Source: Eutreptiella sp. 'Long Island Sound 2002' (lineage: Eukaryota > Euglenozoa > Euglenophyceae > Eutreptiales > Eutreptiaceae). From it: 64,000 nucleotides of DNA. The stretch is taken from NCBI GenBank assembly GCA_964036045.1, contig OZ038382.1, forward strand, positions 134,034,442-134,098,441, given 5' to 3'. The position numbers and the translations under genes are program-made. Shown here in pieces: positions 1 through 53,045 of this stretch. The notes under the pieces were generated by a model. The model was not told the DNA's origin and did no database searches. It saw only the letters and a program-made list of their open reading frames with translations. Numbering within the stretch: position 1 is the first letter of the stretch; every line of letters begins with the position of its first letter.

Positions 1-581
1 CCTGGCATGCCGATTTGGAGGGCCACACCCTCCCCACCTGGTACAAGGGTACTGGGATGCACCCCTCCCTTTTCTTCCCCCTCACCACCACCCCCCTTTT
101 TGGTGTTGAACACCATCGTGTCTCCCCGTTGAGGTCGTCGATCATGGTCATGTCGACGACCTCAAGGATTTGCCCCAATGGGGGCATGCTTTCCAAACTG
201 GCTTCATTTCTGTCGATTGGATGGAGAAGCTTGAGGATGAGTATGGGGAACTTAGGTGGGATGCGGGGGTCAATGTTTTTACTGAGGATTGGCCCGCCGA
301 GACTCGTGCAGGGGACAGTGACACCCGCCGCACGGTCCACCGGAGGGGGGTGCAATGTACAGTTTTGCAAGGGAGGTCCTTATACCCCACTTGGAGACTC
401 ATTTGGGTTGGAAGTGTCCGGTCGTGAATGTTACCACCTTTATTGTGGTGAAGGCCGGTACAGTGGATGTGGAAAAAAACAGTGTTGGCACCGTGACATT
501 AACCTCAGCTATGTTACCGGTCCGGATTAACACCATGTTATTTGCTTGTTCCCGATGTTCAGCCCCACACCCGATGATGGT

Positions 582-1288
582 TGTAACTACGAAGCCAAGA
601 GATTCGCCAACTTGCTTCGGAATGCAGCCAAATAATGGCGGGTGTCTATTATGTTGTTACACTGGCTACCTAGGGATCTTTTCCTCCTTTTTGGTGTAAA
701 TGGAAACTTTTTACCAGGAAAACCCCCGGGTTTCATGCCCCTCTCGTGCTGAAAACACTCCTACGCGGTAAAAAAGTCCCAAAGTTGGCTTCCCAGGCCT
801 TGGCTCGCGCAAATTCGCAAGTAGGCGCGCGCCAAGTCCGGAGTTGGCGCGCCAAAACTGTCAAGTTGGCGCGCGCCAAGTGTCCCCCCACCGATCCAAC
901 CAAACAGACACGAAGAATGGGGCAGTATGCGCGCGCGACAACCGGACTTGGCGCGCGCCAACTTGACAGTTGGCGCGCGCCAAGTCCGGAGTTTGGCGCG
1001 CCAACTCCGGACTTTTGGCGCGCCAACTTGCGACTTGGCGCGCCAACTTGTGAAAAAACTTTGACTTGCCTTCCAAAAAGTTGGCTTCGACCCAAAAAAC
1101 CCACATATTGCAACATAACAACAAAGCAACGCAACCATAAGCTGTAAAATATGGATAGTTCCTCACGTTTCATGCACAAGGCGTAGCAACAACACACTGC
1201 ACAAGTACAAGCAAGTTGAATGCTCTCGACATGGAGTTGACCAGGAGTTGGCGAATGTACAGTATCTGGGGTTGGCTTCGTAGTTACA
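582..1288. mobile_element. MITE-like element F with 17-bp perfect TIRs
   Basis: Terminal inverted repeats TGTAACTACGAAGCCAA lie at 582-598 and, inverted, at 1272-1288. A 2-bp GT duplication flanks the element. The uninterrupted paralogous site in the inner gene copy (around 5205-5225) has a single GT, which confirms the insertion and its boundaries. The 707-bp element has no credible coding region; its centre is filled by palindromes (785-1055). A related end, inverted relative to this one's right end, occurs at 40486. Confidence 0.8.
785..1055. repeat. Array of TTGGCGCGCGCCAA palindromes
   Basis: About eight copies of TTGGCGCGCGCCAA or TTGGCGCGCCAA occur in both orientations, spaced irregularly and separated by short variable stretches such as ACTTG or GTCCGGAG. 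They fill the middle of the MITE. The reading frames crossing them on both strands simply translate the repeat and are not genes. The same motif recurs at 40715-40775. Confidence 0.85.
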
Positions 1289-2269
1289 GTTGTGGTGGGG
1301 ATTTCGTGGTTACATCCCACACGGGCCTCCCGGACCCTTGGGTGGTGGCCCCATTGGCCCCATTGGACATCGGGGATGTGTGGTTGGGCAATGCACTTGT
1401 TGTGCATCGAGGAGGTATTTGCCCTTCCACTAACCCCAATCGGCCCCGTGTTTTTGGTTTCATTTCGGTTAGTACCTCAAGGTTCGACTACAACAACACT
1501 CGCCCTGTTGTTGCTCCCCCTTGGGCCAACAAAGCGGCCGCATCCACCCATGGGTCTCAAGGCCCTCATGCCACTTGTGGTGCAGTTGGTTGTGAGGTGT
1601 TGCTAGATGTGAGTGATGATACCACAGCTTTTTGTGTTACATGTGGTAACGTGCCATTGTGTGCTGCCCACAACATGGAGGGGCAGTGCGGTGCCTGTCA
1701 TGCACGAGGGCGCTTGGAATCAAGGTGAGACAATGAAGCAACACATTGGTGTTGTGTGGGGTCGCTATCCGGTCCCATTGCAGTTCTTTATGCCCGTTGA
1801 TGGGGCTACTTTTTTTGCAATTCATGAAAATTTGAGCCCCTGCCCCCTTCGTGTTGATGTTGAGGGTCACCCTTCATCTGAGGAGTGCCCATTGCGGCAA
1901 ATGCATGCTAACCCCTTGCCTTCTGTGGGCTCTGATAGGACTTTCCTTGCTTGTCCCCCCGGTTCATTGGTGGTTTCGCTGTGTTTGATTGCTGGTGTTG
2001 CTTTGGCTTCCACCGATGCCACACTTCGCGGGGTTTTGCAGTGTCAATGGTTTGCTCTTGGACACAAGCACCACCTCATGGATGTTGCACGGGTGGAGAG
2101 CTACGGTCGGGTGATGTGTTGGCCATGCAAGGCCATCTCAAGAAAGAAGAAGTCGAAGCGAAAGCCCAGGCCAAAGTCAAGGAAGGGCAAGGAGAAGGCC
2201 GGTGAAGAAGTTGAGGACGTTGAGGAGGAACAAGAGGAGAAGAATGAGCTGTGGTGCATCTGCCATCAG

Positions 2270-3042
2270 GTATTTGTTGTGGGCCGTGGGCATGGGTGGA
2301 AGTGTGTTGTTGTTATTCATTAATTGTCATTCATTTCAGAACGTAGGGTCACCGGTGGGTTTTTTTTTTGTTTGCTTGTCGTCAGCGCCTCTCTATATGG
2401 TTGCGGTTCTTCGGGTTGAATTTTTCATTGATCGTCAACCTTTTCAGCTTCTTCGCAGCATTCTTGAATTGCCTACACACGTTTTTGCATGTTTGGGGGA
2501 ACTGGGGTTTGAACCAGGGACGTTACGTGCGCAAGTGTAGCATGCATACCTCTCACCCACACGGTGCCATGGTCTTGCAATACGGCCCTATACCCGCGGT
2601 ATACGGCCGTATACTCCCTCTCTAATTGTGTTCTAACTGTGTTCTAACTCTGCTCTAACTCTTTGAGCCCCCCCCAAAAAAAACATCCTTACGATGCGGG
2701 TTGTGTGGGGAAAGGAAGGGGACGGGGGGTTTTTGAGGGTGCCGAATCCATTTTTTTAGGTGGTTTGCCCCAAAATTGAGGCTAGGTGGGTGTTCCGGAA
2801 ATTGTGCTCTAACTAGGGGTTCCGCACCACGCCCTAGAATGCTGCATCCCACAGTATACGGCCGTATACCACGAGTATACGGCCGTATACCTGCCCACCC
2901 ATTCCGGGTATACAGCCGTATACTCGGGGGTATACGGCCGTATACTGTGGGGTATACGGCCGTATACTCATAGTATTTGTTGCCAATTTCAATCCATTTT
3001 GACTAGTTCATTGTTAGAATTCTACCCTTTCTTCCTATGCAG
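2270..3042 (+). other. Intron with family A palindromes (outer copy)
   Basis: The donor CAG|GTATTTG and the acceptor CTATGCAG|GTCCAG match the inner copy's intron (6181-6720) and join two exons in phase 0. The intron holds several copies of GTATACGGCCGTATAC or its degenerate half sites at about 2586-2620 and 2855-2968. Alignment of the two copies supports the splice sites. No cDNA is available. Confidence 0.7.
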
Positions 3043-3597
3043 GTCCAGTATGATCCCTGGCCACTGCGGAGCATCACTGATTACGAAGTGGCCAAGCCCG
3101 AGGTGGAGTTGGTGCCGCCGAGGGCTACCGCGGGTCAAGTGGTCTCCGGTCGGGAGTACCGGGAACCCATTGCCGTGGGGCGGAGGGATGTTGCCAATGC
3201 CCCCTCTGACGTACCTGGCATGCACCACTGGCAAGGACACTGGGTACTATTACCGACCAAATGTCCGTGCCAGTGGTGCACTGTATGATATTCGACTGCC
3301 CATCAGGGTGGTTGCAAATTTGAATGAGGGGGCAGTTGAGGCCCTTTGGGGGGCTGCAGTGTGGTCGAAGAGCTCGGGGAAGGTGCAGGTTTTTTTGAGC
3401 GCCATGGGGGAAAAATGGAGCATTTCGGACTCCATCGTGGTGCTCCAAAGTTTTGGGGGGAGCCTGTCCCCCGGAGTAATGCCAGGCCCTCCAGGCCGAG
3501 TTGGCCGCGAGGGCGGGAAAACAGCTTGGGGGGAGGGGACTGAAGCGGGCTCATAATGAGCCCGCTGAGGTGAGCGCCACCCCTGCAGCCCCCCCCA

Positions 3598-3631
3598 TAT
3601 GGTGAGCATAACCTGGCATACCAGGAATACC
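3598..3631 (+). repeat. Left terminal inverted repeat of A-inner
   Basis: The 34-base terminus starts TATGGTGAGCATAACCTGG and pairs with 17526-17559. The related terminus of the outer copy reads TGTGGTGAGC, so the family consensus probably starts TGTR, as in the MITE and family B. Confidence 0.85.
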
Positions 3632-3805
3632 TGGGAGTATACGGGTAAAAAAGCGGGTTTTGGGAGAAAGGGGTATGTGGCATGTACAGGTGGGTACGAA
3701 TGTATAATGCACAATGCATGCATAGGTGGGTTGGGGAATACCTCTAGTTTGCCAATTGTGATGATCAATGTTGTGTTTGAAACTACCCCATTTTGGGCTC
3801 TTGGG

Positions 3806-3899
3806 GTATACGGCCGTATACTCAAGGCTCCAATACCTCAGTATACGGCCGTATACTCTGGAGTATACGGCCGTATACTTAGAGTATACGGCCGTATAC
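3806..3899. repeat. Family A palindromes, left subterminal block
   Basis: Four perfect copies of the 16-bp palindrome GTATACGGCCGTATAC lie between 3806 and 3899, separated by short spacers. They stand between the left terminus and the oxygenase gene. Confidence 0.9.
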
Positions 3900-4128
3900 T
3901 GGGGGTATTTGTTTGCACCACGTGGTTGTTTCAAGTTGAAAAATTCCATTGTTGTGCCTTTTGTGCCCATCTTGTTGCATTCTTTGCCTTTGCCCAACAA
4001 TTGCACACCACTTGAAACCAATCTAGGCTCATACTTCACTCATGATTGCAATGTATGTCTCCATATGTGTCCATTCCAATCCATATTATGTTGCTTCTTG
4101 CTCTCCCAGGCCCTCTTTTTCTGCCACC

Positions 4129-6180
4129 ATGACTGATGCGGGCACTCATGCCTTGTTGAAGAAGTGGGCCGATGCCGTAGCTCTCCGCACAGTGCATAGA
4201 GGTGTTTACAGCCCCGACAGCACACGCACCGTGTCTTGGCCTTCTCTTGAGAACTGTGCTTGGTCCACCTTGGACACCCCTGTGACCCTGGTGAAGCTAA
4301 CGCACCCCGGCGTTGTTCAACCCCACAGCCTCACTGACCCTTTGTTGTCGTTGTTTGACAACAACCCTAATCTGCAAGCTATTGTGTTGCAGCTCCATGA
4401 TTCGGATGCCCGCGCTGTCGTGGAGCATGTTAAAAAAAGCTGTGGGGGGCCCAATAGGGGGATGAGTTTGTATTTGAGGGAATGGGAGATGCAGGATGGC
4501 TCTCCGGGGATTCATGTCTCGGGGGACGTGGCCGCTGGCTGGCGCAAATGGGAGTGCAAGGCCCAGCAAGTGCAGCAGGGGCATTGGGAGGACACCGCCC
4601 CCCTCTACTCCCTCCACTCCCAATCGCCATGGTCCTGGCATGCCGATTTGGAGGGCCACACCCTCCCCACCTGGTACAAGGGTACTGGGATGCACCCCTC
4701 CCTTTTCTTCCCCCTCACCACCACCCCCCTTTTTGGTGTTGAACACCATCGTGTCTCCCCGTTGAGGTCGTCGATCATCGTCATGTCGACGACCTCAAGG
4801 AATTGCCCCAATGGGGCCATGCTTTCCAATCTGGCTTCATTTCTGTCAATTGGATGGAGAAGCTTGAGGATGAGTATGGGGAACTTAGGTGGGATGCGGG
4901 GCTCAATATTTTTAATGAGGATTGGCCCGCCGAGACTCGTGCAGGGGACAGTGACACCCGCCACACAATGACTCCACCGGAGGGGGGTGCAATGTACAGT
5001 TTTGCAAGGGAGGTCCTCATACCCCACTTGGAGACTCATTTGGGTTGGAAGTGTCCGGTCGTGAATGTTACCACCTTTATTGTGGTGAAGGCCGGTACAG
5101 TGGATGTGGAAAAAAAACAGTGTTGGCACCGTGACATTAACCTCAGCTATGTTGCCGGCCCAGACCAACACCATGTTATTTGCTTGTTTCCGATGTTCTC
5201 CCCCACACCCGATGATGGTTGTGCTGGGGATTTTGTGGTTGCATCCCACACGGGCCTCCCCGATCCTTGGGTGGTGGCCCCAATGGCCCCATTGGACATC
5301 GGGGATGTGTGGTTGGGCAATGCACTGACTGTGCATTGCGGAGGTATTTGCCCTACCACAAACCCCCATCGGCCCCGTGTTTTTGGTTTCATTTCGGTTT
5401 GTACCTCCAGGTTCGACTACAACAACACTTGCCGTGTTGTTGTTCTCCCTTGGGCCGGCAAAGCGGCTGCATCCCCCGAAGGGTCTCAAGGCCCTCATGC
5501 CACTTGTGGTGCAGTTGGTTGTGAGGTGTTCTTGGATGTGAGTGATGCTACCACAGTTTTTTGTGTTACATGTGGTATTGTGCCATTGTGTGCCACCCAC
5601 GCCGTGGAGGGGCAGTGTGGTGCTTGTGCGGAGGGCGCTTGGAATCAGGGTGAGACATCGACGCAACACAGTGGTGTTGCATGGGGTCGTTGTCCGGCCC
5701 CACTGCAGTTCTACATGCCCGTTGATGGGGCTACTTTTTTTGCAGTTCATGAACATTTGTCCCCTAGCCCCCTTCGCGTTGGGGTTGAGGGTCACCCTTC
5801 ATATGAGGAGTGCCCATTGCGGCAAATGCATGCTAACCCCTTGCCTTCTGTGGGCTCGGATGGCACTTTCCTTGCTTGTCCCCCCGGTTCATTGGTGGTT
5901 TCGCGGGGTTGGTGTTGCTTTGGCTTCCACCGATACCACAATTGGCGGGGTTTTGCATTGGTTTGCACTTGGGCACAACCACCACCTCATGGATGTTGCA
6001 CTGGCGGAGAGCTATGGTTGGGTGAAGTGGTGGCCATTCAAGACGGTTTCGAGGAAGAAGAAGTCGAAGCCGAAGCCCAAGGCAAAGTCAAGGAAGGGCA
6101 AGGGGAAGGCCGGAGAAGAAGATGAGGACGTGGAGGAGGAGGAAGAGGAGAAGCAAGAGCTGTGGTGCATCTGCAATCAG
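4129..6180 (+). pseudogene. Family A 2OG-Fe(II) dioxygenase-like gene, first exon region (inner copy)
   Basis: The ATG at 4129 sits in a good context (CCACCATGA). The first part (to about 4760) encodes MTDAGTHALLKKWADAVAL and onward. The reading then moves back one base within TCCCCGTTGAG (4756-4766), a shift shared by the outer copy. From 4761 to about 5905 it encodes the catalytic-looking region: a WHRD iron-ligand motif near 5125-5140, then GDVWL, VHCGG and NPHRPRVFGFIS near 5310-5400, giving the HxD...H...R pattern of the 2OG/Fe(II) dioxygenase fold. A Cys-rich CxxC/CxxH segment follows near 5500-5630. An 8-base loss at about 5912 relative to the outer copy breaks the frame. The C-terminal part is Lys- then Glu-rich and ends WCICNQ at 6180. 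Substrate unknown; an epigenetic (DNA or histone) role is inferred. Confidence 0.65.
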
Positions 6181-6720
6181 GTATTTGTGGGATCCGGGCA
6201 TGGGTTGAACTGTGTTGTTGTTATTCATTAAGTCCCGTTTATCTCAAAAGGTAGGGTCACTGGTGGGTTTTTTTGTTTGGCCTGTCTTCAGCGCCTCCCT
6301 ATATGCATGGTTGCAGTTCTTCAGGTTGAGTTGAATTGAATTGATCATCAACCTCTTCAACTTCTTCCCAGGATTCTTCAATGGCCTACACATGTTTTTG
6401 CATGTTTGAGGGCAGTGGGGTTTGAACCAGGAACGTTTCGTTTGCAAGTGTAGCATGCATATCTCTCACCCACCCAGTGCCATGGTCTTGGAATACGGCC
6501 GTATACCTTGTGTATACAGCCGTATACCCACGGTATACGGCCGTATACTCCCAGTATACGGCCGTATACCGCGAGTATACGGCCGTATACCTGCCCACCC
6601 ATTTTGAGTATACGGCCGTATACTCCGAGGTATACGGCCGTATACTCATAGTATTTGTTGCCAATTTCAATCTATTTTGCCTAGTTCTTTGTTAGAATTC
6701 CACCCTTTCTTCCCATTCAG
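6181..6720 (+). other. Intron with eight family A palindromes (inner copy)
   Basis: The donor is CAATCAG|GTATTTG and the acceptor CCCATTCAG|GTCCAG, phase 0. Between 6490 and 6645 the intron carries about eight copies of GTATACGGCCGTATAC or one-base variants. The same intron in the outer copy carries the same repeat. Confidence 0.75.
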
Positions 6721-7722: not shown

Positions 7723-7748
7723 TGTACCCTTCGTGAACCGGCCGTTTG

Positions 7749-8010: not shown

Positions 8011-8069
8011 CCTCATTTCCACTGTTTCGCTTTCCCACAGCTCAAGCTTTCTTCGCATTCTCTTTGACA

Positions 8070-15001: not shown

Positions 15002-15007
15002 GCACCG

Positions 15008-15080
15008 TATACTACCAGTATACCTCCGAGTATACGGCCGTATACCTGGAAGTATACGGCCGTATACTCGAAGTATACGG
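15008..15080. repeat. Family A palindromes, intergenic block
   Basis: Two full GTATACGGCCGTATAC copies plus half sites lie between the oxygenase and transposase genes of A-inner. The same block is at 26240-26300 in the outer copy. Confidence 0.85.
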
Positions 15081-33163: not shown

Positions 33164-33168
33164 TTGTA

Positions 33169-40485: not shown

Positions 40486-40775
40486 TGTAACTACGAGGCC
40501 AAGTCCAGATACTTTACTTTCGCCAACTCCAGGCCAACTCCATGTCTAGAGCGTGCAACTCGTATGTTTTGTGCACAATGCTTTGGTTGTCCCTCTTGCA
40601 TGCAATGTGAGGAACTAATGCCTTTTTGCACGTTTTGGCTCTTTTGCTCAATTTTTGTTATGCGTTATGTGTGCTTTCTTAACCGAGCCAACCTTTTTGA
40701 CACCAAGTGGTAGTCGGCGCGCCAAGTCCTCACTTGGCGCGCGCCAAGTCACCAATTGGCGCGCGCCAAGTTGTT
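40486..40775. mobile_element. End of a family F element (MITE relative)
   Basis: TGTAACTACGAGGCCAA at 40486 and the next 75 bases match the reverse complement of 1212-1288. TTGGCGCGCGCCAA copies follow at 40715-40775. No right-hand terminus was found, so this is a truncated copy or the left end of a larger element that includes the following gene. Confidence 0.65.
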
Positions 40776-41204
40776 CAATTGCTTCTTTCTCCATTGCTTT
40801 CACTCCCTACACCTCTCCCCGTGTCATGTTACTTGTTTGAACAGACTCCCAATCCCATTTCCCATTTCCTTCCTTGGCTCCCAAAAGCAAAACCGGGAAA
40901 ACCGTCACCATGCAAACTGGTGGCGCCCCCAAACACTCCTCCCCAATGATGACGTTCAACTGGTCATCGAGGAGCATCAGGCTCGCTCCCATGCTGAGCA
41001 CTTCCCCGCGGGCTTCCTCCCCATGGCCTACCGGCTCACCGCCGAGGATATGTCCACTGTCCCCAACTCACCCCAAGGGCCGGTGGATGCCCAAGGGAGC
41101 CTTTTGGCCGAGGCACGGTCGACTTTCAAGAGCACGAGGAGCCTTTCTACATTTGGCGAATCAATTGCACGCACGTGCATTTTGCCTTCCCTAGGTACCT
41201 GTAT

Positions 41205-41290
41205 GAAAAGTAGTATTTTTCATAATTCATCTTTCATATATGATCGATTCATATATGAACCATGAATTATGAATAGCTTTTATGAACGCT
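41205..41290. repeat. Family D intron 1 with TTCATAA/TTATGAA pairs
   Basis: Begins with a candidate donor GGTACCTGTATG at about 41194 and contains TTTTTCATAATTCATC, TTCATATATGA and ATGAATTATGAA inverted words. Confidence 0.6.
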
Positions 41291-42035
41291 TCTTTGTCCA
41301 CGGTTTTTATGATGTCTTACCCTTACTCCGTCTTTACGGAGCTAATCATGATGGTTGTTCGGCTCAGTGGTGCCACCAATCTTTGGGACAGCAAGTGTCT
41401 CCGACCTGTTGGCCCAATGGATGTCATCGTCCCCCCTCATCCTGCCCCGTTTCTCGGAGGCAATGGACCACGCTCCCCTCCCAGCGGTCCACAAAACCAA
41501 GGCGCACGCCATCTGTACGTATGCGGAGGCCCTCTTTCCTGCACTCTATCTGATAGGGCTCCTTTTGGAATTGGGTGCACCGCGGTCCGGCTTCCGTGTG
41601 TTGTCTGAGTACATCACCCGCCGGGGCGATGCCTACACCGCTCGCACCGGGCTGCCCTTCCCACGGCCCATCCCCACACGGGACCAATTTGACGCAATGT
41701 GGAAGTCATTGATCGCTCCGCTTGCGTAATCCCCCCCGGTGGAATGTGCCGAGCCTCCATCGTCGGGTCATTGTTGGCCCCTACCGTCGTGGGCACAATA
41801 CATGCAATCCCGGCCAGCCTTGTGCCAGTCTATTGACCGGACCCGCCCCCACACCTTGGTGGTGCAAGGTGACGGGTATCCTTGCACCGGTGGCAATTGG
41901 TCGCAACTATTGGTTGGGCTATTGAAGCATGGGGTAAAGTCGAGAACACCCGCCTTCCTATGGGTCATCGGCATGGCCGTCACGGGGCACAAGGTTATGG
42001 TTGTCCTAGGCCAAGTTTGGGCTCAGGTGCTGCAG

Positions 42036-42185
42036 GTTTGTGGTCTGCATTTTCGTGTTCATATGTTGTTCATAATTTGCGCGTTCACAATTTGAAAACT
42101 ACTGTCATAAAACGCCGTACTGCCGATTTATGAATCATCAACGCGATTTATCAACATAAATTATGAACACCTTTTATTAACGTAG
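42036..42185 (+). other. Family D intron 2 with TTCATAA palindromes
   Basis: The donor is GCTGCAG|GTTTGTGG and the acceptor TTAACGTAG|GTCCTGC. The exon after it aligns with the family E exon that starts at 51971 on the minus strand. It contains GTTCATAATT, TTTATGAATC and AATTATGAACA. Confidence 0.7.
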
Positions 42186-43317
42186 GTCCTGCAATCCATT
42201 ATTGACTACAAAAAATCTTACTGGTGCAACGGATGGGTGTTGGCAGCGGTCCTCCTTTGGGGGGGGGGGGGGGGGGCAACCGTGGCTGCGGCGGCTGCTG
42301 GGCATCAGCGTGGCTCCCCAAGTGGGGAGTATTTTCAATCAGGCCGTGCGGGACAATACGGCCAAGCGCAAGAATGACGTCGCGGCTCGGAAGACAACCG
42401 AGTTAGATGCCACCAATCATCGTCGGTATCGGGTGTCCGGCAAAAGTTTGGATGCGGCAGGATGCACTGGCGAGCCATTGCTGGTCATAGCCAGAAACCG
42501 AGTATTTTTGTGCATTTTGCACTATTGCATGGCCTTTGGAAGGCTTTTCATGGCCTTCGTGGAGGCCCACGTGGGAAATGATCCCCCTGAGGTTGCAGGG
42601 GAGGTACATAAAATTTTGTACCGCAACCGGTGGGGCATGCGGTTGGGGGCGCACATCGGAACGTGCGGGGAGGAGGCCCGCATCGTACGTGTTCTGGGCC
42701 TTGGAACATATTGCGCCCCTGCTCGCATACGTCGAGGAGGACCCCACGTGGCAAGCGGTTATGAGGCTGCGAACATTGCTACGCACTTTGTACTCGCCAA
42801 TTCCCGTAGTGCCACACCCTTGGTGCCGACCTGTTGCTGCTGTGTTTCGGAAACACTGCTGCGGGGAGTTGGGGTCGCAGTATTTGTTGTTCCTCTAAGA
42901 GGATTGTGATACAATGCTTGAGAGTGTTGATGCATGCAGGGTGGGATTGGCTTTCCGTGTCGGGGGACGTTGTGGAGAGCACCAATTACATTTTGAAGAA
43001 GGGGTACAATGGGCATAGTTCTAGGGGTGGGGATGCGGGGAAGAGTGCAATGGAACGGGAAGCAATGGTTGTCCAGCAAGTTTGGGTATGGTGGTTTCTA
43101 ATCTTTGACCTACCATTGTTGCACTATAACACCCCACACACCGCGGTGTGCACCGCCGCTTCACTTCTAAGCAGCACCCCCCAAGCACCCTCCACCCAAG
43201 CGCCCTCTGTGACCCAGCTTTATTACTCTTCGCCCACCCATGGATGCCGCCGAGCCGAGGAAGCTGCTGGAGGAGAGTCAGAAGGCGACCCTCGCCCCGG
43301 TGGTATGCTGTCCGTCT

Positions 43318-43425
43318 GCTGTTCTTCGTGTCCATATTGCGTTCATCATTCGGCGTTCATAAAACTGAAACTGCCGTCATAAATGAATTATGAATGGATT
43401 TGTGAACTTATGACTTATGAACCGG
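43318..43425. repeat. Family D intron 3 with GTTCATAA motifs
   Basis: GCGTTCATCATT, GCGTTCATAAAA, AATGAATTATGAAT and CTTATGAACC lie in a short noncoding gap between coding blocks. Confidence 0.65.
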
Positions 43426-43429
43426 TTTT

Positions 43430-44313
43430 AGGGAAGATTTTTTGAACAACGTCCCCCACGTCCACAAGAGCAGCAGCTGGCGGCCCAAGCACCAACTCAA
43501 GCTCAAGCTCAATCTCAAACTCCACCCCCACCTCCACCTCAAGCTCCTCCACCCCCTCAAGCCCACTCCTCCGGGCGACCCCCCACCGCTCACCCCGCCT
43601 CCCCACCCGCCGGCGACTCCTCGGGTTAGGAGTCCTCGGACACGTCGGAGCAGGAGAGGAAGAGCACGAAAGAGGAGAAGGAGAAGGAGGAGAAGAGGAA
43701 GAAGCAGGAGGAAAACAGGAAGAAGAAGAAGGCAGTGGGGGGGAGGGGGGTGAAAGAGGAGGAAACCGGCTCAAGACATCGAGGAGGTGAAGGCCGAGAA
43801 GGAGGAGGCAGTGGAAGACGCAAGGGGTAGAGGGGGGCAGGGGGTTTTGGTTGTGACCCCGTGGTTGAAGGGGGAGGCCGGCCATGCATGGGGCGTGAGC
43901 CACGCCAACTAGCGCCATGTGCTAACCCTCCCCTGGGTGCAGGGAGCGCTATACACTGGGTACTCCCCTGATGCCCCCCTTTTTTCGGCATCCGACGTGG
44001 CGTACGTCGCCCTGCGCTGGGCATTTCGCCGCCTTTTGCGGCACCGCATCCGCAACAACGGTGCGGGGGGGGGGGGGGAGGGCTGGCGGCACACAGAGGG
44101 GGCATGGACATGGAAACCCCTGCCGGGAAAACCCCTGTCCCCCATCCGCGAACCAAATCGTTCCGGGGATTTGACGCAGGCGAAAGTTTTTACGGGCCCG
44201 CGGGGGGCCTTGATGCGGGGTCCGATTGGGAACTGTGCTTCCTCCACTGGGAGGAAAAGGGGTGGGTGAAGCTGCAGCGCTCCGGGCGCAAGTTGGAGTG
44301 CATCCCCTAGTGA
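43430..44313 (+). pseudogene. Family D gene, Pro/Gln-rich, charged and aromatic-rich segments
   Basis: In the frame of 43442-43840 the sequence is Gln/Pro-rich, then AGDSSG-TAG(43627)-ESSDTSEQERKSTKE, a highly charged Lys/Glu helix. Reading the TAG as Gln keeps one frame. A later block (about 43920-44310) ends DWELCFLHWEEKGWVKLQRS and ...ECIP, then TAG TGA (44308-44313). Frame changes occur between blocks. Confidence 0.4.
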
Positions 44314-44547
44314 GAATCCATTTTGGGGGTGAAGTGTATGACCCCGGGCAGGAGGCCTCGTACAAAGGGCCCTTGAGGGCCTCAGCATCAGCCGCCCCAT
44401 CAAGCCCCTTGGCCGGGCAGCCCCGGCCACAAGCAACACCACGGCCCCTACGGGCGCCCCCCGGGGCACCCCTCCCAGCGCAGCTGCGCATCTCCGGACC
44501 GCCTTGGGCGCGCGCCATGGGCACCGCCATACCAGAGCCAGATTTAG

Positions 44548-44690
44548 AGGTATGTGCGTTCATAATTCGTTCATAATTCGTTCATAATTGGCCGTTCATA
44601 ATTCTGTGACGCTGCATTGCCCGTTCATGAACCATGAACACGTTTTATGAAGCCGTTTTATGAACGCAATTTACGAACGGCGCTGTCACA
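44548..44690. repeat. Family D intron 4 / gap with GTTCATAATT array
   Basis: Three direct GTTCATAATTC units, then GTTCATGAACCATGAAC, TTTATGAAGC and TTTATGAACG. It stands between AIPEPDLE (about 44550) and MDAEVNPADVARVLIRYRPG (44695). Confidence 0.75.
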
Positions 44691-44694
44691 GATC

Positions 44695-45638
44695 ATGGAC
44701 GCGGAAGTGAACCCGGCGGACGTCGCGAGGGTTCTCATCCGCTACCGGCCGGGCACCGCCGAGTTCAGCATCGCCGTGTCCGCCGTGTACCAGCAGCTCC
44801 TCCTCAACGGGGGTGCTCTATCGTGTCCGGGTTGCGGGAATGGGAACGGTCCTGCCGCCTAAAGGACACTTGGGCGGCGAATACACTGTGCTGGGCTAGC
44901 CTGGGTGAGTTGGGGTGGGAGGGCTGTGCGGACGAGGAGATTGTGCTGTCTAGTTGTGGGTTGAGCCCCCCCACCCCCTTGCAGCGCCTCCCTAGCAAAG
45001 CCGCCCCCCCCCCCCCGCCCGCCGACAAACCCGAACCCCCCGCCCTGCCCCCCCCCCAAAACCCACCAAACCCAAAAAGCCCCCCACACACAAGCGCAAG
45101 TCCTTCGAATCGAGCAGCAGCTCATCGTCCGACCACGCACTCCCCCGTGGACATGGGAAGGACGTGAAGGGGAAGCAGCCGCAGCAGCAAAAGCGGCGCG
45201 CGGAACCCCCCTCTTTGGAGGGGGATGAGTCACCTAACCCCCTGCTTGGTGCACAGGTTTTTGTGCCCTATACCGAAGGTGTCTACCCGGGGGTTGTAAC
45301 CTTGGTTGTGGGGGAGGGGCGCGGGGGGTGTGTGTGGGTGGAACACCCAGGGGAAAAGGAGATGTTCCGGGTTGAGAGGCATCTATTGTATGCCTCTCAT
45401 GCTTCAGCACTGACCCATTGGGAGTAGCAGAAGGCTGCAACAGCAGCTAAGAAGGCCGCCAAGGCCGAAGGAAGCCTAACCCCAAACCGGACGATGACCC
45501 TCCGGCTAAGCCAGCCCCCAAGCCCGCAAAGCCTGATCCCAAGCCTGAGGCTAAGCAGGCCGCCCAGCCCTAGCCCAAAGCTGCCCCTCAGGCCGCCCCC
45601 ATGGAGGTGGATGCCCCAGCGCAACCCTAGGCCAAACG
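44695..45638 (+). pseudogene. Family D gene, C-terminal Tudor-like segment and Ala/Pro/Gln-rich tail
   Basis: The sequence reads MDAEVNPADVARVLIRYRPG, a Pro-rich linker, then GAQVFVPYTEGVYPGVVTLV...GCVWVEHPGEKEMFRVE (45260-45400), which resembles a Tudor/BAH-type beta-barrel reader. The frame meets TAG at 45425 ([16 protein letters not shown]). After a shift it gives a Lys/Pro/Ala/Gln-rich tail with TAG at 45571 ([14 protein letters not shown]) and 45628 (APAQP-Q-AKRPAQ). TAG falls where the repeat pattern expects Gln. Confidence 0.45.
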
Positions 45639-45639
45639 C

Positions 45640-45890
45640 CCAGCCCAACCTTCTACGTACCTGGTATGGACCTCAGCGCAACAAGTGGTTGGGCCCATCT
45701 TCTGTTGGTGCCGTGCCGGAGTGGTTTACTGGGGAACACCATGGGGACTACGGCTGCGGCACTGCTGGTCTAGCGGCCGACCCCGTCACCTTCGGGAGGT
45801 ACCGTGAGGCCGACCTGGTGCACAACCGGTGGACCATGCTGGGCACCTTGGGAGGCCTGACGCCCGAACTTCTCGGCAAGGCTAGGTTCC
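45640..45890 (+). pseudogene. Captured fragment of a light-harvesting chlorophyll a/b-binding protein gene
   Basis: The frame encodes [40 protein letters not shown] and [24 protein letters not shown]. This is the N-terminal to helix-B region of LHC proteins: the YGP..KWLGP start, the GDYG.DTAGL.ADP block, and the E..H.RW.MLG helix with its chlorophyll-binding Glu and His (here E, H and N/R). After PELLG the similarity stops, so the rest of the protein is missing. It lies directly downstream of the family D C-terminus and looks like host sequence captured by a transposon. Not functional as an antenna protein. Confidence 0.8.
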
Positions 45891-46015
45891 CCAGGCTGGG
45901 CAACTCCGGCTTGTACCTTGAACTGCACAAAGGTCGTGTCTTGGGCGGACCACATATGGTACGCGGCAGTGTGTGCCCAAGCGGAGGCTGCCCGCCTGCC
46001 TCAAGGATTTGCTAG

Positions 46016-46776
46016 TAAGGGCCTTTCTGAGTTTTGCCCTTCTGTGGAATTTGTGAGTGGGAGGTGGGAGGAACCAGGGCACGCCCTGCGGCATTTACAG
46101 AATCACAACGGTGGTCATTCCGCCGGCCGTGGGGTGTGACTGGTGATGCTTGCCTCCCTATTGTTTCTTTTGAGTGTTTTGGGGTATATATTGTGCCTTT
46201 GCTGCGCTGCACCTGGTTCCTCGTGCCGTTCGAACACCGCCCTTAGTGTGTGGCCTTTGTGGGTATATTGCAGGAGTATGGTGTAGTACGCGGCCAGGCT
46301 GCCGAACATGCCTCTTGCGAGCGTCCATAATTGCTATAGCTGGGTGTTGCGGTCAGCTTTGCGCTGCAGGCATGAACGCTTAGGGGCGGGCTTTGTGACG
46401 CACAGGGTTGTATACCATGTGTTGCCAGGCCGGTGGGGGGAGGGGGTGGGGTTCACTTTCTTGGGGTAAGCTCAAGGCCCTTAGGTTTTGGCTACTTTGT
46501 GCCCATCAAGACGGTGTGAGGTTGTGGAGAATATATGCCGCTGGCTAATCCTGCAATTCTCTTGGTGCTTGTGCTGCCGGCATGGAAAACGACTGTGTGG
46601 CTCATATGCTGGACAGTTGTTTTCCTCTGGGTCCCTTGGGACATGCCACCCTGGGCTGTGTATATGGTTTTTCACCCTTTATGATGTCACCCTTTATGAG
46701 TGCCCACCCTAACCCTTGCCGCCCAATAACTATTGTTCAGGCCCTTGGGGTTTGAGAGCTTGAGGGGACGGACTTA
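46016..46776. other. Interval without supported gene
   Basis: Short ORFs only. A possible intron-like stretch GTGTTTTGGGG...TATATTGCAG spans about 46180-46272. Nothing else is recognisable. Confidence 0.4.
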
Positions 46777-47261
46777 TTGCCCTTTTGGGGTATGGATAGT
46801 GTGGCCCGTGATTTCTGGCGACACGGTACTGTCGGAGCAGCACGGTATCTAGTGAGCCTTGAGCATGATGTAGATACCATGTTGCAGAACATTCATCCAT
46901 TTGGGTTGGCCATGTTCTCGGGTGACATTTCGCAAAGCATCTACCGCTTTCTGAAACATGGTCACAACGAGCACAGCAACCGGGGGGGGGGGGGGGCTGT
47001 TGGGGGGGTGGACGAGGTGTCGGGTCGTCAGTGGTCGGCCATCCACAGGGAGGCCAATGTGCAAGCACAGTGCATGACATGGCTGTTTGCATACTTTGAC
47101 GTGTTGTGGGTTGTGCATGGGGGGCCGCGGTCGCAAGTGCCATGCTCGGGCAGGGATGCCATGGAGGTAAGGAGGGGCCAGGGTCACATGCAGGCTTCCC
47201 TCAACCGGAATATTGACCAACAACATGGCATCGCGGGAGTTGATGGACGAGCTGCTCCGCG

Positions 47262-47411
47262 AGGTATTTTGTCTCGTTGTGTGTTCCAACGCTGATCTAG
47301 GGAAGTGCTGTAGTGTTGATCTAGGCAGCACGATCCGTCGCTAAAACGTCGCTAGAACGCCGCTAGAACGGTTGCCTAGAACGCCGCTAGAACGCTCCTG
47401 TTTTTCCTATA
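47262..47411. repeat. Family E intron with CGCTAGAACG repeats
   Basis: The donor is CGCGAG|GTATTTTG and the acceptor TTTTTCCTATAG|AATGCG. It contains GTTGATCTAGG and four GTCGCTAGAACG/GCCGCTAGAACG units at 47338-47396. Confidence 0.75.
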
Positions 47412-48718
47412 GAATGCGGCGACCCAGGCGCTGATTGCGCAGGTGATGGCGGCGCAGCAGCAGGCGCAAGCCGAGCAGGCCGAGGCCAAGCCCAAGACCA
47501 AGCCATCCCCCCTCATCAAGCCCCAGCCCCAACCTCAAGCCCCACCTCCACCATTGCCACCCCCTCACCCGTTGGCCGCCAGGAAGTCGGCGGTGGCGGC
47601 CCCGGAGGACCCCGAGGTGAGGAAATGCGGGGGGAGCTCAAAGGGCTCTCGGCTTCCCTCGCAGCCTCCAAGGGGGCAAAGGCCAGGCTGGAGACCAATG
47701 TCTCCCAATGGGAGACCAAGCTGGCCGAGGTGCGGGAGATGGGGGATGAGGAGAGGATCCGCATGGCGGAGGACACTCTCCGCAAGGCGAAGGCCAAGGT
47801 GGTGGAGAAGGAGAAGGCGATCGAGGCGCTGGATCGCAGCGTGCGGAGGACGGAGCTGGTGTTAGCGAGGGCGGTGGATAAGGTGAAGGAGGAGGAGGAG
47901 GACGAGGTGGTGGAGGTGGACGTGGAGCCGGAGGAGATGGAGCAAGAGATGGTGAAGTAGGAGGTGGAGGCAAAGGTGGTGGTGGAGACGCCGGCGGGGG
48001 CTGAGCCAGTGGCTCAGGGTGATGATGGGGTCGAGGGATGCGGGGGCCATCCAGGACCTGCCATGGGACCCGGCTGTCCCGGCAGGCCTGCACCCCCAAA
48101 CTTGGACACCCCCCTCCCCGTCGCCCCGGAGAGTCCGGTTTGGACTCTCCGGTTTTTGTTGCAGCGGGTGCACCAGCGGCTGTTGGGGGGTGGGGGGTGG
48201 GTATGGGTGGACGAGGGGGGGGGGTCCACCTGGACAAGCCGGTGCGCCTAGGGGTGGTCAAAGGGTGTCGGGGGTGGCAACGTGAGTTGCCAGGGCCGGG
48301 GAAGAGATGGGGAGAGGTGCGCCCCGCCCCCCCCCCGAAATGGGGGTGAAGATGTTCGAGTTGGCGCAAACCAACCTCTTCACCCGAGAGGAAAAAGGGG
48401 GGGGGCACCCACTGGTGATTCGTCGCCAACTGCTGGCAGGGGCTGGGCTTGGGAGGGATGGAGTATGTGGGGAAGGCCTGGACCTGGACGCCAACGTGGT
48501 CGGCGCTCATGGACATGGGGGGTTTCAACCCGGAGGCGGCGAACCGGGGGGCGTATGCCGGGTTGGTGCACGGCATCGCCTCCCGGCCCAAGTCCAAGCC
48601 CAAGCCCGCCGCAACCCCCGGTGGGGGCCCCCCGCAGCCGCACCCCCCCAACCTCCGGGACGCCTTCGCCAAGGCCTTGGGGGCCATCTCCCCCGCCCTG
48701 GACCGCCAAGGCACGATA

Positions 48719-48870
48719 TGTTGATTGCGTTCTAGCGTTGATCTAGCGAACCGTTCTAGCGTTGATCTAGCCACCGCCGTCCCGCCGCCGTTAGAACGTC
48801 GCTAGAACGCCGCTAGAACAGTTGCCTAGAGCACCGCTAGAACGCACCCGCATTATGTTTCTGTCCTCAG
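48719..48870. repeat. Family E intron with CTAGAACG / CGTTCTAG repeats
   Basis: GCGTTCTAGCGTTGATCTAG occurs twice and CGCTAGAACG three times, in inverted orientation. The acceptor is TGTCCTCAG|GTTGTCAGC at 48871. Confidence 0.75.
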
Positions 48871-49149
48871 GTTGTCAGCGTGCAGACATGTGGAGCCGAC
48901 CCCCGCGGGGTGCACGTGGAGTGGCGCGATGGCGGAGGCCGGGCGCGCCTCGTGGGGGTCACCAAGTTGGGCCGGATGATGGGGACAGACCCCAATTTGG
49001 CCCTCTCGGTGCTGGAGGGTTCGGGTAGGTGGGAAGCGGGCAGGAGTGCGGGGGGCATGGACCCGCAGCGCAAGGGTTGGGTGAGGTTGCAGGACCGGGC
49101 GGGGGAGACCAGCAACGGCAGCAGCAGCAGCAGCAACACCAGCAGCGGG

Positions 49150-52100
49150 GGGCACCCCCCTTGTCACCCCCCTCCCCCTTGTCACCACCCTCGTCCCCCT
49201 CGTCATCCCCGTCGTCCCCGTCGTCCCCCTCCCGCAAGGCCTCCCGGAGGTGGGCCTCCACCTCCTCCCGGGTGAGGAAGAGGAGCTCCCCCGCCACCCG
49301 GAAGGTGCCCCCCTCTTGCTCCCGCTTCATCTTCTTCCCCTTCTTCCCCTTCTTCCCCCCCTCCCCATTGGACCCCTGCGACACCACCCACCACTCCCCC
49401 GGGTCCGACTCCTCATCCCAATCCCCCAACGCCGTCACTTGGCTGACGGTACCCCCATTGCCCCCCTCCTCCCAAGGGACATACCGGGTGTACCCCACAC
49501 CCGGCACATTCCCATAGGGGTCCCGGCCCCTATCTTGCAAGGGGGGGGCTTGGGGTTTGGGGGGGGGGCTGGCTTTGCCCTTGCCCTTGCCCTTGGGCTT
49601 GGCCTTGGCCTTGGGCTTCCTCTGCTGGGCTTGGGGGGGGGGGCGTCTTCCTCGCTACTCTAGAAGCGGGGTTTTTGGTTGGGGGCCTTGGGGGGGGGGT
49701 TTGGGGGCCTTGGGGGGGGGGGTGTCCTCGGTGCCGGGAGCAAGGATGAGCCCGGGGAACCCCCCACCACGCAAGAGGGGTAACCTGCGTGTCGCGACTC
49801 GCGATGGGGGCCAGGGGGGAGGGGGGGCTAATTGGGCTAACCGGGCTAATCGGGCTAACCCACCACCAAGTGACCCGGCGCCGGCCTGCCAAGTGACCTT
49901 CCAAGTGACCTATGGGGTGCGTTGGGGGGCTAACCGGGCTAACCGGGGGGTGGGAGGGGGGGAACCCGGCGCTCCGTGAGTCAGGTCCAGCATCGGGACC
50001 CTGGCCATGGTAGCCGGGGCAGCTTCTCTTTGAGGAGTGGCGGAGCATTCATATATATTGTTCTAGCGGCGTTCTAGCGAACCGTTCTGGCGGCGCTCGC
50101 GGCGCTCGAGATTGCGTCTTCCAGCGTGTACCAAAGGTAGGGGCTGCGAACATGCGGACTACCCGTTCCAACTGCGGAATTTGAAACCTCGTTGGCTTCC
50201 TAACATCTACCTTATTAATGCCACAACACGCGGAAACCAGGGAACATTTTTGTGAGCTTTCTGGTATCACTGTGGCCTTGCTAGTTCGGTGCTTGTTGTG
50301 AGATTTCTTGAGTGGCCCCGCGGACCTGATGCTATCGAGCATGGCCTAGACGGCCGGGCACTCCACTGTCAGAACCCCATTGGCATATTTCTTGTCCCAC
50401 GCGGTGTAGACGAGCAGCAAGCTTGCCGGCAAGTTTTTGTGCCACAACGAGGATGCCACCGCCACTCCGCAATGTCCCACCGGTTAGAGGCATGATACCC
50501 CCCTTCGGACCCGGGACAGACCTGAAGGGACTTGCTTGGGGGGAGAGCGTCAGTAGAATCATCACCACGATGATCTGCTCCGCCATGCGGTGCCCCAACG
50601 AAAAATCTCTATGCGGGATTTAGAAGCCCTTCCACGGGGGAGCATCCCAGCGATCGATGAATTTGGGACACAACGGTTCCAAACCATTAAGCTCCAGGAT
50701 GCCCTCCCTAAGGTGGGCCACCAAATCGTGCTCGAGGTCTTTAGACAACCAGTTGGCCAGACTGGTTGCCTTGGTCTTATACCTGCCTCGCCCTCCACTG
50801 GGGCTTGCAGGTCCACCGTCTCCACCCATTCCAAAGGCAATTCTGTTGTTGCCAAGGGTTGCAACCTCATCCACCTGAGGGGGGAGATGGTGAGGAAATA
50901 CTTGTGGTACCCTGCTGCCAGGAAACCCTCATCGGAGCTAATGGGTGCGGTGGGGATGGGGTGGTGGGAGATGGAGTAGGAGTTGTGGAGGGAAGGATGG
51001 GGGCACCCCGTTCCGATCATGGTGAAAGGGGCGGCCGTGGTGGAAACCGTGGGTTGGGTGATGTCCTCCAGGTGCGTACGAAGGGACTTGGAGGCACAAA
51101 AATCTATGGGTGCCGCCGCCTCCCACGGTTGCACCTTGCAATAATTATACCGCACCAGGGCATCCGTTGTGGTCCGCCCACATCCACCTTTGGTCCCCAT
51201 CAACATCATCAGGCTGTTTTGTGCTGAGTTTTTGCACATTGACAAAGTCTTTGTCACTGGCTGAAGCACACAGCTTGATAGTGTTGTTGAGAGCCAAAGA
51301 TGTCTTGTGGTTTAGCAGGAACAGCCAGCGGGGGCCACGGCAGCACAGTTCAATGGGTTAGGGCCCTAATATGTACAATAGAGGGCCTGCAGCAGGTCCC
51401 ACATGTTCGCGATGGCCTTGTACTTGGCCGTGCTCGGCCCAATGCCGAGGCACCTAGCAATATCCGGCCATGCGTCAAAAAAATTGGCCGTCTCTTCCCC
51501 GTCCGGGGAAGCTGACCCATAAACGCTCCAACCTGCACGCCTCTCCGACAGGAGAACTTGCAGGTCTTGACGGAGCGCAGGGGTGACCGACCTAGCCTCC
51601 CGGTCGACAAACTCCCCCAACAAGCGGCCCATGGCCATTGTCAAGTGCAAAATGCACAAGACGACCCAGGCACGTGGCAATTTCAAAATCCGCTGCGTAC
51701 TGCAGCCAGCGGCTTGCAAGGAAGGCGTCCCAAGGAGGAAGGCCGTGTAGTTGGCCCAATCACGCTCCATGGTCCGCGGGATAGCACTACCCTCCCAAGT
51801 CTTCTTTTGGGCATTCCATATCCCCTCATTGAACATGGAGCCTACTTGGGGGCATGTGGACACCCCGATCACCCTTCGTGTCCACGGTTGATCCCCCCCG
51901 AGGATCACCTTTGCCTCCTCCTTGGAGGCCCCCCATTGGACGAGCCCCGTGTCGATGATGTCTTGAATCACCTAAACACAAGACATGGGGGGTGGTTAAT
52001 TTCGTTCTAGTCTAGTGTAATCTAGCTTCTAGCGAGCGGTGTTCGAGGCTAACTAGATCAAAACTAGAACGAGCGAAAGGCACTAGGTGAGAGGCCTACC

Positions 52101-52867
52101 TCCCAATTGCTCTTCCACAACGTCCCAAGGGTGTCCATGGCCTTGTCATTGCATTTGGCCATGCTCAACACCCAAAGGCCCGCGGGGGAGCGGGCCAAGC
52201 GGTCGAAGTTGGCCAAGGAGATGGTGAGTTGGGTCCAATTGCCCCCGGCCACAGGGTAGGCATCTCCCCGGACGATGAACGTCAATGGGAAGTTGCGGTT
52301 GATTGACCGCACCAAGCCCGGCCGGGAGAGGATGTATGTGACCCATGAGGCGAAGGGCCATGAGATCCCGCCGGCCTTGGGCAACACCGTGGCAACGGGC
52401 TCATCCAATTGCACGGGGGCGACCAACTCCTGCCAACGGGCTTGGAAATCCCGCTCAGTACAAATTGGACGGGAGTAGGGGCCACCGGGGACGGTGCGGT
52501 GATACTCCAACTTACGGAGCGTGTAGAGCTCCGAGAGGGTCCTCCACGAGGACTTGGGGGCCCTCATGTTGAGCACTAGTTCACACATGGAGGTGGGGGG
52601 GAGAAGGGAGGCGGCGTATGCCTCAACGGCGGCCTTGCATGCCTCACCCGTGGTATGGGTAGAAGTGGCGGAGTTCACACATTGGACGGCGTTGTTGAAT
52701 TGCCGCCGTGCTAGGGGGCATGATAGCGCCCACGTGGCCAAGTAATGGCCCACCCGCTCATCCTTGAGGTTTGAAGCCCCACTCAACTCCCGTAGTCCCT
52801 TAGACAAGAGGGAAGTATCCTTCCCGGTTGAGGAGGGAGCAAGGGGGGAAGTGGCGGGGCGTTTCAT
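49150..52867 (-). pseudogene. Family E minus-strand transposase-like gene
   Basis: The probable start is ATG 52867 (MKRPATSPLAPSSTGKDTSL). Exon 1 runs 52867-52100 and contains LTFIVRGDAYPVAGGNWTQL, matching VVQGDGYPCTGGNWSQLL in family D. The intron is 52099-51972. Exon 2 from 51971 reads VIQDIIDTGLVQWGASKEEA, ILGGDQPWTRRVIGVSTCPQ and LCILHLTMAMGRLLGEFVDR. Downstream frames (51365-50332) are interrupted only by TAA/TAG in places, for example around 50620 between AHLREGILELNGLEPLCPK...PPWKGF and LGHRMAEQIIVVMILLTLSP. The gene ends with a Lys-rich segment and an Asp/Gly repeat (49663-49150) that meets the plus-strand gene. Likely a DDE-type transposase; decayed. Confidence 0.55.
51972..52099 (-). 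other. Family E intron with CTAG-rich repeats (minus strand)
   Basis: On the minus strand the donor is TGGGAG|GTAGGCC and the acceptor GTGTTTAG|GTGATTC, phase 0. It contains TTCTAGTCTAG, CTAGCTTCTAGCGAGCGG and AACTAGAACGAGCG. Confidence 0.75.
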
Positions 52868-52984
52868 TGCAAAGAAATGTGTAATATCTAAGCGCGAGAG
52901 AAGGAAGCATGGAACAATGAACTGCGGACAATAGCAAGCATGCACGGGGGAACAATGAAGGGATTGGGATATGTGGGTAGACAT

Positions 52985-53045
52985 TATATCGTTCTAGTAT
53001 TGATCTAATCTAGGCTAGAACATCTGGGCTAGCATGTTCTACGCT
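52985..53045. repeat. Family E end-proximal CTAGAAC repeats
   Basis: CGTTCTAGTATTGATCTAATCTAGG and GCTAGAACA, GCTAGCATGTTCTACGCTAG inverted words lie just 5' of the minus-strand gene and next to the rDNA. No clean terminus could be defined. Confidence 0.6.

Follow-up and report, generated by a model that had tools for sequence, protein, structure and literature searches.

CACTA (En/Spm) transposons carry subterminal repeats that are bound by TnpA, which the element encodes in addition to its transposase, and that serve synapsis. VANDAL elements, a group of MULEs, encode the anti-silencing proteins known as VANC (PMC5735166; PMC10398659). In the parts of this literature drawn on here, Arabidopsis VANC21 is described as binding family-specific motifs in the introns, intergenic DNA and terminal noncoding DNA of VANDAL21 (PMC5735166), and VANC targets are described as rapidly diverging tandem repeats whose motif varies between related families (PMC5735166; PMC10398659). 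Fungal DNA transposons have been described that carry TET/JBP genes (PMC12730594).

We analysed a 64,000-nucleotide stretch of the genome of Eutreptiella sp. 'Long Island Sound 2002' (the window), in which several DNA transposon families each carry a private short DNA word, often palindromic, repeated in their noncoding parts. The words lie in element ends, gaps and long introns, and the coding sequence of families A and B is free of them. This was the core observation of the first-pass annotation, and it holds; the accompanying statement that no described transposon class has such a layout does not, since VANDAL elements with their VANC proteins come close (PMC5735166).

Families A and B

The nested family A element A2 (3599–17559, forward strand) has TIRs TATGGTGAGCATAACCTGGCATACCA at both ends and is interrupted by a family B element. 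Its identity to L005, a complete family A copy elsewhere in the 2.28-Gb genome that served as our reference, is 96.8% and 97.6%. The left subterminal array (3806–3899) holds four palindromes at spacings of 35, 22 and 21 bp, which recur in other genomic A copies. Exon 1 of gene 1 (4129–6180, forward), in which an oxygenase-like motif is seen by eye, has a frame that is broken here and open in L005; it is followed by a GT-AG intron (6181–6720, forward) with a palindrome array at 6491–6645, the gene 1 intron of L005 lying at 2772–3353 of that copy in phase 0. Further on come an intergenic array (15008–15081), the main transposase exon (15389–17014, forward) and a right subterminal array (17259–17336; the right block has also been noted as reaching 17345). 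The outer copy A1, whose first visible piece occupies 1–3598 (forward), has an intron array at 2578–2968, a decayed intergenic array at 26238–26297 and a right array at 34826–34891.

The palindrome was confirmed at each place at which it had been reported for family A (left block, intron, gap and right block), with 19 exact copies of GTATACGGCCGTATAC in the window; at up to two mismatches there are 26 sites in positions 1–53060, of which 15 lie in A2 and the other 11, by their coordinates, in A1. 'Every noncoding segment' was too strong a wording: no motif is present in an intron-like gap of ∼85 bp, identified by eye, that precedes the A transposase exon. In L005 the left block, intron, gap and right block hold four, eight, three and two palindromes, and none of these 17 lies in coding sequence, which by our own gene models makes up 72.5% of the copy. 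The same four-block layout is found in a copy at C1:24.017–24.047 Mb, judged from listed positions and three pieces. Genome-wide, the 16-mer occurs 4078 times in 2.28 Gb, against a single occurrence of the reversed control, and among the first 50 sites listed all 34 gaps shorter than 200 bp measure 21, 22, 33 or 35 bp.

The family B element (7723–14256, forward; TIR TGTACCCTTCGTGAAC, outermost bases placed by eye) is inserted in A2. Exon 1 of its gene 1 (8070–9551, forward) lacks a piece present in another B copy, L036, in which the open frame is longer. The GT-AG intron (9552–9858, forward) carries an array at 9602–9753 composed of two sub-arrays of 11-bp spacing, 53 bp apart, and exon 2 (9859–11352, forward) gives a weak ATG16 match below cut-off that probably reflects a coiled coil. 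An intergenic array (11782–11900), an open transposase frame (12031–13794, forward) and a right subterminal array of TTCACGTGAA, GTGAATTCAC and TTCGTACGAA (13905–13997) follow. The motifs had been assigned to the same four places as in family A, which is borne out for intron, gap and right block (19 TTCGTACGAA, nine TTCACGTGAA and four GTGAATTCAC), but the left block (7917–8005) is weak, with one TTCACGTGAA (7918) and one TTCGTACGAA (7996). None of 28 palindrome sites falls in coding sequence, ∼73% of the window copy by our own gene models. The B transposase has 74 scored genomic matches, the window copy included, at 98–100% identity, 65 of them stop-free; it is a distant relative of the A transposase (24%, E 2e-5). 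A further locus, L009, combines a B left end with TTCGTACGAA in three blocks; the stretch examined yielded no B gene, and because its right end was not seen the arrays could derive from more than one element.

Comparison of A copies with L005 shows that the palindromes are better conserved than the spacers between them. Over every A alignment of at least 200 bp, substitutions affect 20/1241 palindrome positions against 29/508 in spacers (Fisher p 9e-6), 251/7371 in other noncoding DNA (p 4e-4) and 675/18004 in CDS (p 2.6e-5; the L005 CDS bounds behind these counts extended 57 bases into the gene 1 intron), a pooled figure that is biased towards palindromes because L001–L015 were retrieved by exact A 16-mers and the reference has perfect sites. 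Outer A1, a window copy that was not chosen through the exact-site search, on its own gives 9/192 against 17/63 in spacers (p 4e-6) and 119/1176 in other noncoding DNA (p 0.016); the difference from CDS (421/4894) is not significant (p 0.06). In the right block of subfamily A' (L015), whose transposase pieces are 65 and 78% identical to those of A and which retains the 22-bp spacing, the motif has 2/49 changes against 10/17 in spacers (p 5e-6), or 2/33 once the exact site that recruited L015 is removed (p 9e-5). L013, however, is contrary, its palindromes having changed at 4/64 positions, more than its coding DNA (9/627), and in L012 the figure for palindromes is 3/63.

Families C to F and the spacing of sites

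Family C (28370–34722, forward; TIR CTTAGGCCACGCTAACT) had been credited with a palindrome at 28569, 31146, 32652 and 34208. At up to five mismatches we find nine sites (28576, 28645, 28714, 28831, 31146, 31216, 32654, 34202 and 34271), against a mean of 0.03 and a maximum of 1 in shuffles, but the perfect 20-mer occurs only once, at 31146. The spacing is 69–70 bp, in three separate blocks.

Family D (40487–46500, forward) has a gene with intron-like stretches bearing GTTCATAA words, in clusters at 41218–41287, 42068–42168, 43341–43423 and 44557–44665. There are 16 GTTCATAAT sites at up to one mismatch, against 0.63 in shuffles, and 15 of them lie in the four clusters; the intron at 42036–42185 is supported by comparison with family E and the rest were placed by eye. 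The left terminal block (40717–40771) carries a different motif, TTGGCGCGCGCCAA, rather than the D intron word; the right end was not found, and left block and introns do not necessarily form one element. Family E (46500–53060), whose minus-strand exons are related to D, has arrays of CGCTAGAACG / CTAGAAC words at 47339–47394, 48728–48845, 50059–50092, 52004–52070 and 52991–53050, with 13 CGCTAGAACG sites at up to one mismatch against 0.05 in shuffles; its ends were not found. The genes of D and E share one intron position (51972–52100 in E), and there the motif has been replaced, each family filling it with different words. A short element, F (583–1288; TIR GTAACTACGAAGCCAA), has no evident gene and carries a TTGGCGCGCGCCAA array at ∼22-bp spacing.

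The sites of A, B, C and F show dyad symmetry. The reported inverted words in each D intron, and the motif in each E intron, are real word arrays, but the words are not palindromes; the C sites are mostly imperfect. A randomly chosen stretch of 200 kb contains none of the A, B, C or F motifs, while the D word is found there 29 times and the E word five times. No palindrome core is present there three times within 80-bp steps; a laxer scan does pick up other word arrays and palindrome-bearing repeats.

Sites often lie 11 or 22 bp apart, which corresponds to roughly one or two helical turns, and a tandem-repeat finder reports units of these lengths; C, at 69–70 bp, differs. The case for strict 10.5-bp phasing was weakened: the signal comes mostly from the 11- and 22-bp spacings, the C spacing is a misfit, and a test of seven longer gaps picked by hand shows only a weak signal (best period 9.95; at 10.5 bp, R 0.76 and p 0.0125).

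Element proteins and the function of the arrays

By eye, gene 1 shows residues resembling those of a 2OG-Fe(II) oxygenase, in which HxD...H...R sits in a double-stranded beta helix: A has HRD...H...R, and a B copy with an open frame has HTD...H. No A or B protein tested gave a Pfam or NCBIfam match at curated cut-off, no weaker match was to an oxygenase, and there was no PDB match. With Pfam relaxed to E up to 10, one A gene 1 region, its C-terminal domain and one B gene 1 frame gave no oxygenase family, and fold prediction for the A oxygenase-like region from a three-row alignment (pLDDT 31) yielded no usable fold. Identity as a TET/JBP-carrying transposon was considered and not adopted; the A and B proteins tested gave no match to the Tet_JBP profile. 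Homology between A and B gene 1 was dropped, since residues flanking the intron hinted at it but the proteins did not align significantly. For the transposases at E up to 5, Pfam returned nothing for B and only unrelated sub-cut-off families for A, the MULE and KDZ (Kyakuja-Dileera-Zisupton) transposase profiles being among those unmatched. A search of viral contigs turned up nothing related to B gene 1 or to the B transposase.

Because the sites are excluded from coding sequence, better conserved than spacers in A, regularly spaced and family-specific, putative self-recognition sites for element proteins, as first proposed, remain the best reading; the oxygenase or reader attached to that proposal amounts to residues seen by eye. 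We put at about 0.55 the probability of a private cis-acting code in each family: short sites, arrayed through the element's long noncoding segments, by which a protein of the same element holds off host silencing. The binder would most likely be the gene 1 product, with its probable coiled coil and oxygenase-like motif, although the transposase and host factors are also candidates. It would bind as a dimer where sites are palindromic, coat the noncoding DNA and keep silencing off that one family, much in the manner of VANC proteins on VANDAL elements; copies whose genes no longer work could use it in trans, provided that they retain arrays. Joint drift of protein and sites would explain why motifs differ from family to family, and would keep families independent and spare host genes.

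Base J is reported from the nuclear DNA of Euglena gracilis. For strain UTEX 753, nanopore sequencing that called 5mC and 5hmC has been described (PMC12455990). More tentatively, each family may encode an oxygenase that its own palindrome steers to the noncoding parts of its own copies, there to rewrite 5-methylcytosine or base J as a silencing mark of the host. The transposon would then carry both address and eraser, and would be a VANC analogue of independent origin that brings its own enzyme.

Of the alternatives, the one that survives best, though we think it unlikely, is that the sites serve transposition only, binding transposase or accessory protein for synapsis, with internal arrays as by-products or sinks. 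Both A subterminal regions and the right one of B have arrays, F and the B-ended L009 retain them, and the B right block is as palindrome-rich as the intron (12 against 10 in the window copy). However, synapsis has no need of intron or intergenic sites, and internal arrays equal or exceed those at the ends (eight plus three against four plus two in L005; ten TTCGTACGAA in the intron and eight in the gap of L036).

Sites for a host DNA-binding protein, such as an enhancer or insulator factor recruited by each family, are improbable: regular spacing and symmetry would suit any dimeric DNA-binding protein, but such a factor would be expected to have its own targets, and neither the random stretch, free of the A, B, C and F motifs, nor the genome-wide count of the A 16-mer fits this. 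Somewhat less probable again is the earlier suggestion of RNA hairpins that affect splicing, here widened to pre-mRNA hairpins that influence editing or dsRNA processing. Intron arrays do fold far better than 40 shuffles (z -5.8 in A, -9.1 in B), and Euglena is described, in the part of the source used here, as having structured nonconventional introns (PMC11170887). Hairpins are disfavoured because element ends carry the same arrays, both intron strands fold about equally (-5.8 and -5.1 in A; -9.1 and -7.9 in B) and sites are regularly spaced; moreover, the A and B introns are GT-AG and the D and E words nonpalindromic. Least probable is neutral growth of short-unit tandem arrays by slippage in unconstrained DNA, with exons free because they are selected, for although the 11- or 22-bp repeat units, the family-specific arrays that local duplication would give and the arrays and repeats of the random stretch are in its favour, sites are conserved while spacers change, one motif recurs across separate segments of the same element, and the random 200 kb has no array of three perfect palindrome cores.

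Comparison with known systems

Like the fungal TET/JBP transposons, as far as the available text describes them, the elements here may combine a transposase with a 2-oxoglutarate oxygenase; that text makes no mention of 'subterminal', and its sole 'palindromic' denies such a sequence at gene borders (PMC12730594). Short repeated sites cluster near the ends, as in CACTA elements (both ends of A, right end of B). Unlike CACTA, the termini begin TATGGTGAGC in A, TGTACCCTTCG in B and CTTAGGCCACG in C, none of them CACTA, and the arrays reach into the intron and intergenic gap.

The closest likeness would be to VANDAL elements. As in the published descriptions consulted, arrays occupy introns, intergenic and terminal noncoding DNA (four places in A; three in B, the left being weak), and related families, here D and E, have different motifs. 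In contrast, the VANC21 motif YAGTATTAY and the VANC6 motifs given there are not palindromes (PMC5735166; PMC10398659), the proteins tested here have no MULE transposase match, sites here are often 11 or 22 bp apart, and the accessory protein looks oxygenase-like by eye. If our reading is right, address codes against silencing that are private to a family, known from one plant transposon group, would seem to have had a separate origin in a distant eukaryote; new DNA-binding specificities, for long palindromic sites, may also be found here. A test bed is offered by the near-identical B copies whose transposase frame is open, and by the families that fill one shared intron position with different motifs.

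Motif arrays in the window and in control DNA

In the window, exact counts came to 19 sites of GTATACGGCCGTATAC for family A and, for family B, 19 of TTCGTACGAA, 9 of TTCACGTGAA and 4 of GTGAATTCAC. Family C has a single perfect CTGGGCGAAATTTCGCCCAG; allowing up to 5 mismatches yields 9 sites, against a shuffle mean of 0.03 and a maximum of 1. With one mismatch allowed, the word of family D (40487..46500) is found at 16 sites and that of family E (46500..53060) at 13, compared with 0.63 and 0.05, respectively, in 60 shuffles. Arrays with three or more identical, perfect palindrome cores were seen ten times in the window, three of them overlapping in the right block of B, and not once in any of five first-order shuffles or in 200 kb taken at random from another chromosome. 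No A, B, C or F motif occurs in the random 200 kb; the E word is found there 5 times and the D word 29 times (0.145 per kb, versus 2.66 per kb within the D element). A laxer word scan of the random 200 kb does detect word arrays, for example a 600-bp repeat bearing GACGATCGTC palindromes alongside GAGTGCACA words. The first-pass annotation had assigned a palindrome to every family. Given these counts and controls, we therefore retain palindromes for A, B and C (mostly imperfect in C), and describe D and E as carrying direct or inverted words instead.

Among other genomic stretches fetched, L016-L025 (C2:50.00-50.10 Mb) hold a repeat of ∼600 bp with TTTTCAGGACGATCGTCCTGAAA palindromes, some at 22-bp steps, together with ACTAGGACC...GGTCCTAGT inverted words. 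Arrayed GAGTGCACA words occur in L026 and L032-L034, several of them spaced by 11, 22 and 33 bp, in the same 200-kb stretch as relatives of the C-terminal region of A gene 1 (L031, L033). Arrays of other words, at L013 784-857, L011 373-457 and L015 1330-1755 (AGCGCGCGCT, GCGTCCGTTT, GACCGGTC / CACTTTAGC), suggest further families of the same kind.

Copies elsewhere and relations between families

The 2.28-Gb genome has 4078 occurrences of the A 16-mer and a single one of a reversed control. In L005 (7.9 kb of C1) the A element is complete, ∼7.49 kb long and bounded by TIRs that match. Its exact sites lie in the left end (385-463), the gene-1 intron (2772-3353; sites at 3123-3263, plus one with a single mismatch at 3102), the intergenic gap (5116-5160) and the right end (7381-7403); by our own gene models, none lies inside any of the three coding stretches. 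A copy at C1:24.0 Mb, judged from listed positions and three pieces, has the same layout over a larger span. Within the A intron, sequence similar to a tRNA B box (GGTTTGAACC) was noticed by eye, at 2500-2570 and 6420-6480 of the window. The outer A copy is split by an insertion (20099-25770) whose ORFs look by eye like those of a tyrosine-recombinase retroelement; nearby sequence (20099-20259) is in common with family C.

For the B transposase, 74 genomic matches were scored out of 8531 first-look candidates; all are 98-100% identical, and 65 of the 74 are without a stop. In L036, a further B copy in a stretch that excludes the left end, TTCGTACGAA occurs 10 times within the intron, 8 times in the gap and 3 times in the right block, where TTCACGTGAA and GTGAATTCAC are present as well. 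On the reverse strand, L009 shows B terminal sequence, three TTCGTACGAA blocks and, by eye, an apparent 28S rRNA fragment, with no B gene detectable in the stretch examined.

Related families carry different motifs. The D and E proteins are 35-37% identical, and an intron falls at the identical place and phase in both, before V-[LI]-Q-x-I-I as read by eye; it holds GTTCATA-type words in D (42036-42185) and CTAG-type words in E (51972-52100). The A transposase is distantly related to that of B (24% over 251 aa, E 2e-5), and the palindromes of the two families are unrelated. Directly after E lies a ribosomal RNA unit (53242-64000) comprising a 2.2-kb small-subunit gene, 5.8S and split large-subunit matches, between which 40-bp repeats precede 85-bp tandem repeats (59997-60785).

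Spacing and conservation of the sites

Sites are regularly spaced. In A, B and the short element F (583..1288) they are mostly 11, 21-22 or 33-35 bp apart; among the first 50 A sites listed, the 34 gaps below 200 bp measure 21, 22, 33 or 35 bp, and B has two sub-arrays separated by 53 bp in intron and gap alike. Family C has a 69-70 bp spacing in three separate blocks. Phase concentration peaks at 10.5 bp among nine periods tried, a peak that stems from the short gaps. For seven longer gaps picked by hand, the concentration at 10.5 bp was 0.76 (p 0.0125) and the best period 9.95. Only for A and B is helical phasing a possibility.

In the fetched A copies (alignments of at least 200 bp), 20/1241 palindrome positions differ from L005, against 29/508 in within-array spacers, 675/18004 in coding DNA and 251/7371 in other noncoding DNA; the p-values of Fisher tests on these pooled counts are optimistic, because L006-L015 were chosen for containing exact 16-mers and a given site can enter the counts through more than one related copy. 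The outer window copy, unlike L006-L015, was not so chosen, and alone gives 9/192 for palindromes versus 17/63 for spacers (p 4e-6), 119/1176 for other noncoding DNA (p 0.016) and 421/4894 for CDS (p 0.06). L013 opposes the trend (palindrome 4/64, CDS 9/627). L015 represents a diverged A subfamily (transposase pieces 65 and 78% identical) whose right block retains two palindromes and two half sites at 22-bp steps; a by-eye count on the alignment gives 2/49 changes in motif versus 10/17 in spacer, or 2/33 versus 10/17 (p 9e-5) once the exact site used to select L015 is removed. In coding DNA, the rate of change at CpG sites is ∼2.6 times that at other sites, and 170/285 of the CpG changes are to TG or CA, a pattern that is compatible with cytosine methylation but no proof of it. 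Palindrome CpGs are less changed (9/310 versus 120/1454).

A candidate role for gene 1

By eye, the patterns in gene 1 of A (...CWHRDINLS...VHRGG...RPRVFGF...) and of B in L036 (...LPHTDV...RLHGLP...) resemble 2-oxoglutarate oxygenases. A second conserved region comes after gene 1 of A, with relatives at 28-29% identity in the random stretch. Profile and structure libraries did not confirm the oxygenase reading of either gene 1, or A's second region, and structure prediction of the A oxygenase-like region gave no usable fold.

Family-private, symmetric, evenly spaced and conserved sites in long noncoding segments are what an array-binding protein would need. That sites lie in the intron and gap too argues against a role in synapsis only. 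Taken with the parallel to VANC, the Arabidopsis anti-silencing protein of VANDAL transposons, these features lead us to prefer the reading that gene 1 encodes an anti-silencing protein acting on the arrays; here we infer the binding, the protein that binds and the mark that would be removed. Base J is reportedly present in Euglena gracilis nuclear DNA.

Among the papers listed on palindromic or subterminal repeats, introns and transposases, or on Euglena DNA transposons and transposon-encoded dioxygenases, we found no description of these elements, in a search whose coverage mostly excludes subscription papers. The VANC21 ChIP signal covers noncoding parts of VANDAL21, whether intronic, intergenic or terminal, and VANC6, a relative of VANC21, has other motifs (PMC5735166); VANC targets are described as rapidly diverging tandem repeats (PMC10398659). 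VANC21 and VANDAL21 form the closest described case we found.
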